Origin: a virus
Length of the DNA stretch: 27,295 nucleotides
Direction: 5' to 3' (one strand)
Virus record (IMG/VR): IMGVR_UViG_3300029319_000391
Span: 1-27,295 of that record
Made by a program: the position numbers and the translations under genes. Of the stretch, positions 15,374 through 23,199 are shown one piece after another. The notes under the pieces are model-generated. The model was not told the origin of the DNA. It ran no database searches and saw nothing but the letters and a program-made list of their open reading frames with translations. How positions within the stretch are numbered: position 1 is the stretch's first letter; every line of letters begins with the position of its first letter.

Positions 15374-16372
15374 TTATTTAACTATAAAATACATCATAGG
15401 ACTTACTATTTTTTCGGAAAGTAAATTATACTCAACTTGTAGAGAGTAAGTTCCTGTTTTTGCTCCTAGTTCACTAACATCCAATGATGTAGGATTCCCA
15501 TTCGTTAAATCAGCGGTAGTGTCAAAACTATAGATAATCGTATTGTCCGAAGTAATTCTGGTAGGGCTAGTGCTGTTAGTTTCTGTAGCACTCACAACAG
15601 TAACCCTTGAAGGAAGATTACTGTCTTCATTATGTTTTTTGATAACCACCGTCGCATTGGTTATAACTGACTGCTTGAAAATATTCTTTATATTATCATC
15701 AATATTTTCATTCTCAACTGTTATTTCTGTGCCGATTTTTAGGTCAACTTTAGAGCCCAAGGTAACTCGTTTATTGAATAGTTTATTTTTAGTTCTTAGA
15801 AGTAAGGGCTCAGTCAGCGAGAAAACAGTATTATCAAAAAGCTCAAATGAATTTATGTATACGGTCCAGTCACTATCAGAGAACATCTTAACAGTCCAAA
15901 CGTCAACATATCTTCCTGTTGCAGATGTGGTATTTTGGATTCTATCTCCGTTTTGATCAGTTCCTGACAGGTTACTACCAGCACCGCCATCAAGAACACA
16001 CGCAAATTCACCTTCTCCAATCTTGTACACACCACTGACACCACTACATGAAGGAGCACCTGCACCGAGTGTTGGTATTACTCCTGTATATTTTGTCTCA
16101 TCAAAAGATGTGTCAGTTGCTACAACCCCGTCACCTGATGGGCCAAAAACCATTTTAGCTAAGTTTGTTGTGCTGGAGGCCACAATCCCACTACTGTTAA
16201 GAACAGTTGAAGGCGCTAAGTTGTAAGCTCTGTCAAAAACATGAACAGAGCTTACAGCGTAAGGATCTACATACTCTCCATCATTAACAAAGTATGTTCT
16301 AAGTAAAACTTTTTGATCGACCTGAGGCCTATTGTGACGATCTACAACGGGTATATTATTTATTGAGGGCAT
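15374..16372 (-). CDS. Unrecognised beta-rich virion-type protein
   Basis: A 332-residue protein rich in Ser, Thr, Val, Asp and Asn with repeated beta-strand patterns, typical of phage fibre, decoration or neck proteins. The N-terminus (PSINNIPVVDRHNRPQVDQK) is followed by RTYFVNDGEYVDPYAVSSV. The C-terminal 60 residues look like an immunoglobulin-type strand set (GAKTGTYSLQVEYNLLSEKI). Two cysteines lie near 110-125. No family is recognised. Its first 17 bases overlap the end of the start-less -1-frame ORF upstream. Confidence 0.72.
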   Translation of the reverse strand: MPSINNIPVVDRHNRPQVDQKVLLRTYFVNDGEYVDPYAVSSVHVFDRAYNLAPSTVLNSSGIVASSTTNLAKMVFGPSGDGVVATDTSFDETKYTGVIPTLGAGAPSCSGVSGVYKIGEGEFACVLDGGAGSNLSGTDQNGDRIQNTTSATGRYVDVWTVKMFSDSDWTVYINSFELFDNTVFSLTEPLLLRTKNKLFNKRVTLGSKVDLKIGTEITVENENIDDNIKNIFKQSVITNATVVIKKHNEDSNLPSRVTVVSATETNSTSPTRITSDNTIIYSFDTTADLTNGNPTSLDVSELGAKTGTYSLQVEYNLLSEKIVSPMMYFIVK

Positions 16373-16547
16373 TTTTCTCTCGCTCTACTTCTTCTGTAAG
16401 TAATTCAATAAATGTAGCCCTTTCCGTCCTAGTTAGTGTTTTTACATCACCATACGAAAAGCCTACATGTTTCACAAGTATATAGGCTTCCCGCAACAGG
16501 TCTGAAACTTCTATGGATCCATTTAATTCACTGAGAAAAAATTTTCG
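16356..16547 (-). CDS. 63-codon frame without normal start; probable -1 frameshift extension of the gp26-like gene
   Basis: Between the gp26-like stop and the next gene, the -1 frame is open for 63 codons (from just after a TGA at 16550-16548 to TAA at 16358-16356). Its product looks like real protein: SELNGSIEVSDLLREAYILV, then HVGFSYGDVKTLTRTERATF and IELLTEEVEREKNALNK. Small phage proteins with an SYxD...ER.xFI..L.EE pattern are familiar from tail assembly regions (recollection, not a search). There is no ATG or GTG in frame; one TTG sits at codon 18. The frame meets the gp26-like gene at two slippery heptamers, so a -1 slip would give a 306-residue fusion. Alternatives: an ATG at 16522 (ATG GAT CCA TAG) with one base lost, or a rare start codon. 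Confidence 0.6.
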   Translation of the reverse strand, partial: RKFFLSELNGSIEVSDLLREAYILVKHVGFSYGDVKTLTRTERATFIELLTEEVEREKNALNK

Positions 16548-17275
16548 TCAATTGGTAGTCCAATTAAATTTGGGGTATTACAAGAATCGCATGTATAATT
16601 GATTTGAGGCTGGACTCCGTACTGGGAGAGTGTCAATTCTGCAACAAGAATATGAATATCCACCACAGGAAGCTTACTAATAACCTTAGAGATTGTTGTT
16701 TGAGTCTCAATCCCATCAATACTGGTAACAAATCGCCATAAGTTTTCTGCGATCTTATCGGGAGCCAGATAAGGCTCATCAGCAACGGTCAGAAAAGAGA
16801 TCGTAGCGTTTTTCTTGATACCTTTTAGGTATACTTCTCGATTATTAAACTGAAAGTCTTTAGGGACTTGAACTGTATTAAGTTTATCAAGCTCTAAACT
16901 TAAAGTATTTTGATAAGAGCAGTGACTACATACTGCCCCAACTTTATATTCATTACCATACGAAAGCTCTCTAATTTTTAGTAGTAGGTAAAGTTTATCA
17001 ATCATTAGTAGCTTATCAATATCTACATTTAGAACGCATCGACCAATTAGGTGGTTTGCAGGGTTAAACATTGGGCTTCTCGCCCCTGTGCTTAAAGATT
17101 TCTCATCTTCGAAGGTCATGGGTCTAACACGAACTGTTCCTTCCTTTCCAAAGTAAGGAATACCTCTTGAAGGGACAGATACATCCACTTCGGTTTCTGC
17201 GGGAAGATTCTCTAGTATTCTAGATAACTCTTCTTCTTCTGATAGCACTTTTGTCTCTGGAATTTCTGTATTCAT
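16523..17275 (-). CDS. 26: Baseplate hub assembly protein, gp26-like (T4_baseplate family)
   Basis: A 250-residue protein with the pattern of the T4 gp26 family: VDVSVPSRGIPYFGKEG at 30-46, VRVRPMTFEDEKSLSTGARS at 48-67, then DIDKLLMIDKLYLLLKIREL and SYGNEY. Two CxxC knuckles (Cys116/Cys119 in CSHC and Cys229/Cys232 in CDSC) form a likely zinc ribbon. gp26 (208 residues in T4) acts in assembly of the baseplate hub. The ATG at 17275 has AGAGG with 6-base spacing, and the gene is divergent from uvsW across 28 bases. The last codons contain slippery heptamers leading into an open -1 frame. It is far from the hub genes at 5-9 kb here, whereas in T4 they are neighbours. Confidence 0.83.
   Translation of the reverse strand: MNTEIPETKVLSEEEELSRILENLPAETEVDVSVPSRGIPYFGKEGTVRVRPMTFEDEKSLSTGARSPMFNPANHLIGRCVLNVDIDKLLMIDKLYLLLKIRELSYGNEYKVGAVCSHCSYQNTLSLELDKLNTVQVPKDFQFNNREVYLKGIKKNATISFLTVADEPYLAPDKIAENLWRFVTSIDGIETQTTISKVISKLPVVDIHILVAELTLSQYGVQPQINYTCDSCNTPNLIGLPIDENFFSVN
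16535..16544 (-). promoter_or_regulatory. Candidate -1 frameshift slippery site (two overlapping heptamers)
   Basis: Read in the zero frame of the gp26-like gene, the minus strand shows A AAT TTT (16544-16538) and, overlapping it, T TTT TTC (16541-16535). Both fit the X XXY YYZ rule for -1 slippage, and both lead to the same fusion. The zero-frame stop TAA follows 9 bases later, at 16525-16523. I could not find a convincing downstream pseudoknot by eye. Function is inferred; the heptamers themselves are directly visible. Confidence 0.5.
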
Positions 17276-20624: not shown

Positions 20625-21406
20625 TTAACATCAGGTAACTGTTGATCCCTAAGAGCAGAAGCCCTCTTAATGACACCATAGTTAATAGCATATAAATTTG
20701 ATGTTCCTGGTTGTGAGTTTTCAATAATAATCTCAGTTGCTGGCAAACCAGGAGGTAAAGTTAAAACTGCTGTTCCACCCGCTGCTGCAACAACGCCTAC
20801 CATCGCAGAGGCGGTAGGACTTATCCTGGTAATCGCTGAAGCACATGTAGCAGAAGTTGTAGTATCAAATGCGGAAGCAACATACTCATTTCCTGATGCA
20901 CCTCTACTAGGAATAACTCTGAAGAATCCATCAGTTCCACTTAAATCAGTTACCGAAACATAAGGAGCAGCGGCAAAACCACTTTCCATAGTCGCTTCAA
21001 TGGTAGCAGAGGTGCCAGTGGGAAGAACGCTAATTAGATTGGCACTATTCAAAGCACCACCATCATTATCGCAAATGACTAGCCCAGAACCAGCTAACCC
21101 TTGGTATACTCCAGCATTAGTAATCTCAATTTTTGATTCTAATTCCGAAGAATTTTTTCTAGTGGTGATAATGTTAAAGGTAGCAGAGGTTTCACCAACA
21201 CCCGCCCCAACAACACCACCTGAGGCAGTAAATGATGAAGTGCCTAAGGCAAATCCAGATGTATTCGACATTGACAGAGATTTAAGGCTGATAGCGGTAT
21301 TAAGTAATGGGATAGCAGACGCATTAAATGATCCATCACCTACCTGAACATTAGCAACCTCAACTAACTTACATACTGGAATGATTGTTTCTCTTAAATC
21401 TGCCAT
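20621..21406 (-). CDS. Unrecognised beta-rich virion-type protein
   Basis: A 261-residue protein rich in Ala, Ser, Thr and Gly with few charged residues, typical of phage decoration, neck or fibre-base proteins. Strand-like segments include SATFNIITTRKNSSELESKI and AVLTLPPGLPATEIIIENSQ; the last fifteen residues are basic then acidic (KRASALRDQQLPDVK). I see no known domain. The start overlaps the scaffold-like gene's stop as TAATG. Confidence 0.68.
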   Translation of the reverse strand: MADLRETIIPVCKLVEVANVQVGDGSFNASAIPLLNTAISLKSLSMSNTSGFALGTSSFTASGGVVGAGVGETSATFNIITTRKNSSELESKIEITNAGVYQGLAGSGLVICDNDGGALNSANLISVLPTGTSATIEATMESGFAAAPYVSVTDLSGTDGFFRVIPSRGASGNEYVASAFDTTTSATCASAITRISPTASAMVGVVAAAGGTAVLTLPPGLPATEIIIENSQPGTSNLYAINYGVIKRASALRDQQLPDVK

Positions 21407-23199
21407 TACTCAGTCTCCTCTTCCTCAGTGGCCTCGGTTTCTTCATCTTCTAACTCTTCTTCAGGCTCTTGCTCATCAAGCTCTTCAAAGTTAATTGAGT
21501 TTAGGATGTCTTCAAAACTCTTAAAATCAGACATTATCTCATCAGAAGTAGGAGTCTTGTCCTTAGTCTCACCTGCATCTTTTTCTTCTAAATCCTCTGG
21601 CGCTTCTTGAACTTCTGGCTCTTCATCAACTCTAGGCTCATCCTCAACTTGAGTTTCATCATTTTGTGCCATTGCTTTTCCAATCTTCTTACGACGATTT
21701 GCTAAGTATTCATCCGTTTCGTCTTCATCACCATCGTTATCAATGTCACCGTCTTCTTGACCCACGGGATCTAATTTTTTGTCTGAGTTCTTTGAAGACT
21801 TCTTGTTTTTATCTTCTTCCTTACTTCTTCGTTCTTCTTCTTCCTCAGCCTCTTTAGTTCCGCCCTTGATCCCCATTTCAGGATAACCCTTTTCTTTATT
21901 TTCTATAATAAGATTAACAAGCTCATCAATAGACTCAAGTGAAGAGAAGGTTTCTTTGATTGATATATCCTCAACTAATGTATTTTCTAAGATATCGTTA
22001 TACTCTGCTTTTTCAAAAAGAAGTTCAATAAAGTGATTAATATCAATTGATTCAACGCCATTCTTTGTTCTAAGCATTTGTGCATTTTCAGAAAGAACTT
22101 CTTTCTGGACTGAGCCTTTGGGACTTAACTTTGCAAGTGCCTCAAAAATAAGAACTTGTGTGTTAAGCAAGCTCTTAAAAGTTGGGATATCCTTTAGATT
22201 TTGAACGCTAATACCGTACTTCTCATTGAGCATGGAAATAAACACCTTTTTGATTGGTTTTTTGCTCTCAAATAAGTAACTGCTAAATGCCTTGAGGTCT
22301 TTGATGCTGACCTTTACGGACTCATTTAGCTCTAAATTATTGGTAATTGTATCGTAAATTTGTCTCTTAGTGGCTAAAGCAAAATAAGGAACCTCACAAA
22401 TGGCTTCAACTAAAGATTTTGCAATGACCTCCTCGTCTCTTTCATAAACAAGAGAAGCGAGCTTGGAGATTTTTTCGTTGTTAAGCCAAACAAGATTGAA
22501 GTTGTTCTTAGACTCGACCAACTCTTTTCTAATAAGCTCTTGCTTACAAACCATTTCATAAATGGTGTGATTAATCTCCTCTGGAATCTGATAGGTGCCT
22601 TCGTTAAGATCATCATAACTTAATTTAGGCAAGTTAAATGCATGAGATACCGCAGAGGACAGCCTGACCATATTTTTAATTTCAGGAATGTTTACTAGGT
22701 TTTTATTTTCTCTAAGGAATTCAACTAGAGCGGGAGCAATCTCTAATAATTTCTGAAACTCGTCAGACTCTAAGATCCTATTGCTGCCATTGAATTTTTG
22801 AGATTTTTCATAAAGCTTCTTTTTAACAGAAGAAAACTTAACTCTATTTTCCCATAGTTGAAGAACTTTGTTAAAACTAGTATCAGCCTCAACAAAGTCC
22901 TCTTCAAAGATATTTTGAATAAAGTTTGAAATTTTATAGTTGACAAAATCATCAAACTGATCGCTGTCTTCAAAAAGATCATCGCTTTCAACTTGAATGT
23001 TCTCAAGTAAAACCCCATTATCAAAATTATAAGAAGCGGCAATAATGTTGCCGCTTTCGGTAATAAATGTTACTTTTCTCTCTGTATCGTCAATAGAGAA
23101 AACCTCTACATTCTCTCGTAGTGAACGACCCAAATAATCAGATAATTTAATTATATTGGTTACTTTTTTATCTCTATTCTCAAAAATATGATCAAACAT
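21406..23199 (-). CDS. Large acidic protein, probably prohead scaffold or core
   Basis: A 597-residue protein encoded directly after the portal. Residues about 1-430 are Leu/Glu/Lys/Asn-rich and helical; the last 165 or so are extremely acidic with runs of Glu. Within this tail PVGQEDGDIDNDGDEDETDE and YLANRRKKIGKAM form a motif I associate with marine T4-like phage proteins; DxDxDG in it resembles one EF-hand-type calcium loop. In T4 the genes after portal 20 code for prohead core proteins 67 and 68, protease 21 and scaffold 22, so a core role is inferred. No protease motif is seen. AGGAG precedes the ATG at 23199. Confidence 0.62.
   Translation of the reverse strand: MFDHIFENRDKKVTNIIKLSDYLGRSLRENVEVFSIDDTERKVTFITESGNIIAASYNFDNGVLLENIQVESDDLFEDSDQFDDFVNYKISNFIQNIFEEDFVEADTSFNKVLQLWENRVKFSSVKKKLYEKSQKFNGSNRILESDEFQKLLEIAPALVEFLRENKNLVNIPEIKNMVRLSSAVSHAFNLPKLSYDDLNEGTYQIPEEINHTIYEMVCKQELIRKELVESKNNFNLVWLNNEKISKLASLVYERDEEVIAKSLVEAICEVPYFALATKRQIYDTITNNLELNESVKVSIKDLKAFSSYLFESKKPIKKVFISMLNEKYGISVQNLKDIPTFKSLLNTQVLIFEALAKLSPKGSVQKEVLSENAQMLRTKNGVESIDINHFIELLFEKAEYNDILENTLVEDISIKETFSSLESIDELVNLIIENKEKGYPEMGIKGGTKEAEEEEERRSKEEDKNKKSSKNSDKKLDPVGQEDGDIDNDGDEDETDEYLANRRKKIGKAMAQNDETQVEDEPRVDEEPEVQEAPEDLEEKDAGETKDKTPTSDEIMSDFKSFEDILNSINFEELDEQEPEEELEDEETEATEEEETE

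Follow-up and report, generated by a model that had tools for sequence, protein, structure and literature searches.

Frameshifting in chaperone genes is itself well known in phages, and a 2016 review describes G-T frameshifting as conserved in long-tailed phages 'except T4' (PMC5009743). For T4, gp26 and gp51 are the pair identified by Vladimirov et al. (2022) as the tail assembly chaperones of the T4-like phages, as reported in papers that cite that study (PMC10885494, PMC12846349). In the account given by the first of these, Vladimirov, Gautam and Davidson (2022) describe some T4-like phages as carrying a short copy and a longer fused copy, with no frameshifting (PMC10885494). In its remarks on slippery sites, the second refers to T-rich examples in the TAC-N genes of T4-like phages, and it mentions for the Vandenendeviridae/Andersonviridae (phage Adele) a -1 chaperone frameshift close to where TAC-N ends, at a T-rich motif that is conserved (PMC12846349). 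The locus reported here is a well-conserved and previously unannotated case.

The locus lies in a stretch of 27,295 bases, called the window below, which is a fragment of an uncultured T4-like myovirus from a virus record of that length. Its T4-type genes are those for the large terminase, the gp20 portal and two baseplate wedge proteins, one gp25-like and one gp53-like. It also encodes a primase and, next to the gp26-like gene, a helicase of the uvsW type. No relative was found in the bacterial genomes searched, which is consistent with a lytic phage. We propose, at a probability of roughly nine in ten, that the gp26-like gene gives rise to two tail assembly chaperones by a programmed -1 ribosomal frameshift: a TAC-N of 250 aa and a TAC-NC of 306 aa. 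The features are the following.

16523 to 17275, minus strand: gp26-like protein (putative short form, TAC-N), 250 aa, Pfam PF12322 T4_baseplate, two CxxC pairs.
16535 to 16541, minus strand: predicted slip site, the heptamer T TTT TTC in the phase of the gp26-like frame; T TTT TTC or T TTT TTT stands here in 142 of 142 loci.
16523 to 16525, minus strand: zero-frame stop TAA, three codons after the heptamer, with equal spacing in 47 of 50 representatives.
16356 to 16541, minus strand: start-less C-terminal (T) domain of 61 aa, counting the two Phe, closed by TAA; homologous in all relatives.
15374 to 16372, minus strand: downstream gene, 332 aa, function not assigned; its first 17 bases, from the ATG on, are shared with the end of the T domain.

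The gp26-like frame runs from an ATG at 17275 to the TAA at 16525..16523, and its 3' end reads ...GAA AAT TTT TTC TCA GTG AAT TAA. The product matches PF12322 (T4_baseplate, the T4 gp26 family) with an E of 5.8e-15 and 56 bits, above the Pfam gathering cut-off of 24.5 bits, and so belongs to the family. It also matches phrog_150 'baseplate hub' (E 2.5e-17), an annotation that probably stands for a tail assembly chaperone. The two CxxC pairs are zinc-ribbon-like. An AlphaFold2 model of the protein has a pLDDT of 86. When PDB folds were searched with it, the top match by probability was HK97 gp13 (2OB9) at 0.33, with a nonsignificant E of 1.5, and YqbN (3KLU) ranked lower in the same list. A search of solved structures by sequence returned only spurious matches for the gp26-like protein. 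We infer chaperone function from the family, from the gene order in relatives and from this weak structural likeness.

The -1 frame is open on the minus strand from 16547 to a stop at 16356, a length of 63 codons. The earlier note had described it as having neither ATG nor GTG. The absence of ATG stands, but there is one in-frame GTG, as well as one TTG, both well inside the domain. The placement of the frame and of the overlapping heptamers A AAT TTT (16544..16538) and T TTT TTC (16541..16535) ahead of the zero-frame stop held when the coordinates were re-checked on the minus strand. Slippage at T TTT TTC would give ...ENFF-LSELNGS... in a 306-residue product, so the predicted sizes of 306 residues for the fusion and 250 for the normal protein are reproduced for slippage at the second heptamer. 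X XXY YYZ heptamers in phase are frequent in this AT-rich window (95 in 8,486 codons), so a lone heptamer proves nothing. The conserved combination at this locus is far beyond chance.

Relatives were selected by protein similarity and not by the heptamer. A first scan with the gp26-like protein found 63 viral loci at 35-70% protein identity. With a second scan, based on a profile, the set grew to 142 loci with the window included, of which 78 are distinct and which reduce to 50 representatives at 80% identity. In all 63 relatives of the first scan the heptamer is kept, the zero-frame stop follows as a rule after three codons, and the -1 domain is some 60 residues long. All 142 loci have T TTT TTY (TTC or TTT) in phase followed by a homologous start-less -1 domain; the heptamer and the missing start, whose fate in relatives the earlier note had left to an alignment, are thus kept throughout. 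Homology of the -1 frame among the relatives begins right at the FF of the slip site. The first Phe codon is TTT in 50 of 50 representatives, against a background of 76% TTT elsewhere in these genes, and the codon 5' of it always ends in T, whether the residue is Asn, Asp, Ser, Gly or Thr. Naive P values are about 1e-6 for the first Phe codon and about 1e-8 for the preceding T, the true values being larger because of shared ancestry. The last base of the heptamer varies between T and C among the representatives; in slippery heptamers of such kind this base is unconstrained. A -1-frame stop lies directly 5' of the heptamer in 11 of the 50 representatives, and in one further representative the zero-frame stop comes one codon after it. 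Therefore, the frame switch is confined to the heptamer across the clade. Since only T TTT TTY is conserved, the slip site would be the second heptamer. A AAT TTT was rejected for this role, being unconserved; GAT, AGT, GGT and ACT are also found before the Phe codons.

Beyond the zero-frame stop, the T domain has a pooled dN/dS of about 0.13, and third-position differences in the -1 frame are 2.6 times as many as first-position ones. Stops in the -1 frame of the domain occur in 0 of 72 loci, and stops in the other two frames in 72 of 72. By these measures on the sequences, the domain is under purifying selection. The conserved heptamer, the homologous domain with no start and the dN/dS value all support the programmed -1 frameshift put forward in the earlier note. 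The AlphaFold2 model of the domain is helical and confident (pLDDT 92.9). Nothing matched it in the PDB fold search, nor in the search of solved structures by sequence. Membership in DUF6760 (PF20546) was considered and rejected, with 14.5 bits and an E of 0.04 against a cut-off of 27, and scores below the cut-off in all members tested.

The -1 domain might instead be an independent small gene, expressed from a rare start codon or by termination-reinitiation near the gp26-like stop. Some distant relatives (121Q gene 595 and LR756511) do carry an ATG for the T frame across the gp26 stop, and the cyanophage records annotate the T frame as a separate gp51. However, T TTT TTC is kept in 121Q and LR756511 too. 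In nearly all of the clade, none of the -1 frame's first 14 codons is ATG, GTG or TTG, no start codon is common to the relatives, and the homology already starting at the FF is against a separate start. An independent gene would also leave the synonymous constraint on the heptamer without a reason. The outcome that the earlier note had named as refuting its reading, an intact ATG gene in relatives or an indel, did not come about: no ATG-started gene for the -1 domain exists among the 142 loci, all of which keep the slip site and the start-less domain. The window's own ATG at 16522 does hit TAG after three codons, as that note had said. We regard an independent gene as very improbable.

Slippage could also take place in transcription, with RNA polymerase adding a base on the T-run and shifting the frame in the transcript rather than on the ribosome. 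Every relative has a run of six to eight T at the site, but in most it is only six, which is short for efficient transcriptional slippage. The run also always stands in the X XXY YYZ phase of tandem slippage, a phase that is partly forced by the Phe-Phe codons. This explanation seems to us just as improbable as the independent gene. A third possibility is that one ORF was split in two by gene decay or by an indel from sequencing or assembly; the window is a metagenomic contig known from a single record and has a homopolymer at the site. Against this, 78 distinct sequences, drawn from many metagenomes, have the arrangement, as do the finished genomes of cultured phages, and the -1 part is under purifying selection. 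Conservation and dN/dS refute the indel and pseudogene readings, to which we give next to no weight.

In the programmed ribosomal frameshift that we favor, most ribosomes would stay in the gp26-like frame as far as its TAA and yield the short form of 250 aa (TAC-N), in the role of G. A smaller share, with two tRNA-Phe on TTT TTC, would shift one base backwards at T TTT TTC, so miss the stop that follows three codons later, and by reading the -1 frame produce the long form of 306 aa (TAC-NC), in the role of GT. On the lambda model, the part shared by the two forms would bind the tape-measure protein, and the T domain would recruit tail-tube subunits during assembly. A conserved downstream stem-loop was looked for in 22 aligned loci and gave no consensus pairs, pseudoknots being outside the search, and the window's own downstream hairpin is unremarkable (z -1.26). 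No Shine-Dalgarno-like stimulator is evident upstream in the alignment. Therefore, the heptamer may act alone or with a further element.

The ATG of the 332-aa protein falls inside the end of the T domain (window 16356-16372), and therefore its translation may be coupled to the frameshifted reading. The protein itself (15374..16372) has no confident family match. A tape-measure gene was not identified within the 27,295-base window. Beside the portal there is a 597-aa protein (21406-23199, minus strand) with no functional match, and since the RaK2 gene in the corresponding position carries an annotation of similarity to a tape-measure protein, we consider the 597-aa protein a candidate tape measure.

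Nearly all the non-T-even phages of the gp26 family that were examined have a T-like domain in another frame after a terminal FF or like residues. Frameshifting in this family was unfamiliar to the earlier note; a T-like second frame proves to be widespread across it, and the window is not the first of its kind. The frame is -1, by way of xxT TTT TTC/T, in Escherichia 121Q, Klebsiella RaK2, Pseudomonas PA5oct, Agrobacterium Atu_ph07, Xanthomonas XacN1, Pectobacterium CBB, Cronobacter GAP32, Vibrio 2.275.O, Stenotrophomonas RAS14, Sinorhizobium phiM12 and Phosso, the cyanophages S-RIM8 and S-SSM5, and the 595-kb LR756511. Records for the cyanophages and several jumbo phages with this site usually list the two parts as distinct genes, 'gp26' and 'gp51'. 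In 121Q (L156, 3813-4022) and LR756511 (L065, 6787 onward), the T frame has an ATG across the gp26 stop besides the slip site, which would allow a free T protein as well as a fusion. Viral contigs like S-SSM5 have T TTT TTC and 60-66 codons of -1 frame in 51 of 51 distinct loci. For S-RIM8 (L159, 3170-3360) and S-SSM5 (L160, 3170-3360) themselves, the records begin a 'gp51 baseplate hub assembly catalyst' at an internal start codon, and the -1 frame joins gp26 at T TTT TTC. In phiM12 the gene order is gp26, gp51, one gene, and then a tape-measure-like gene.

In another set of phages the domain is in the +1 frame and there is no T before the first Phe codon. These are Bacillus SP-15, Listeria LIS04, Streptococcus GXN1, Microcystis Mel-JY01, Flavobacterium immuto and Streptomyces BRock; the +1 loci (L146, L147, L148, L149, L151, L152, L144, L145, L162 and L251-L330) have it after the gp26-like gene. 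Among 61 distinct immuto-like loci, the +1 frame is open and start-less, and the -1 site occurs in none (0/61). The immuto-like loci have in common TTT CTT/TTT TGG CCT GAC before the stop, which is reminiscent of the CUU U slip site of prfB. SP-15, LIS04 and immuto have the gene order sheath, tube, gp26-like, T, tape measure, with the pair where G/GT classically lies in lambda. The Alishewanella phage Slickus01 (L153, 3718 onward) has a gp26-family gene with no clear T-like frame directly after it, and it may use another arrangement. We think it fairly probable that the way of making the long chaperone changed repeatedly in the T4 gp26 family, among -1 slippage, +1 shifting and the gene duplication of the T-evens. 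A change in the direction of shift between branches of one gene family may be new.

T4 gp26 ends LKEFFELL and is followed by gene 25. A further PF12322 protein of T4, gp51, has an additional C-terminal tail, which looks like the T domain by eye and aligns with it weakly in a profile comparison. Profile comparison with T4 gp26 and gp51 gives weak scores, and the T4 link rests on Pfam together with the resemblance visible in the gp51 tail. The T4 sequences themselves agree with the chaperone assignment of gp26 and gp51, and T4 seems to make its short form from gene 26 and its long form from gene 51. Since the gp26 family carries the frameshift signature outside the T-evens, in the clade of the window, in cyanophages and in many jumbo phages, the two-gene arrangement of T4 looks like the exception. 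For annotation, what is called 'gp51' or 'hypothetical protein' after gp26 is in most cases a frameshift product's C-terminal domain.

Where T4 has two separate genes, the window phage would rely on a single gene with a frameshift; only one gp26-like copy is seen in any of 16 related contigs (fragments of up to 106 kb). The cyanophages S-SSM5 and S-RIM8 resemble the window: T TTT TTC precedes the gp26 stop, and the -1 frame encodes a T-like domain. They differ in being annotated as two genes with an internal start, and the overall similarity is weak. Phage Adele, likened by description, belongs to other phage families and has the motif GTTTTT. The comparison with lambda G/GT (TAC-N/TAC-NC) made in the earlier note is apt. 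Shared with lambda are a short form with a predicted frameshifted long form, a slip site just before the zero-frame stop, a start-less C-terminal domain and, in related phages, a position between the tail tube and the tape measure. In contrast, the N part here is a larger, cysteine-containing domain of the T4 gp26 type, and the site is T TTT TTC in place of the lambda GGGAAAG; the likeness to lambda G described here is one of arrangement.
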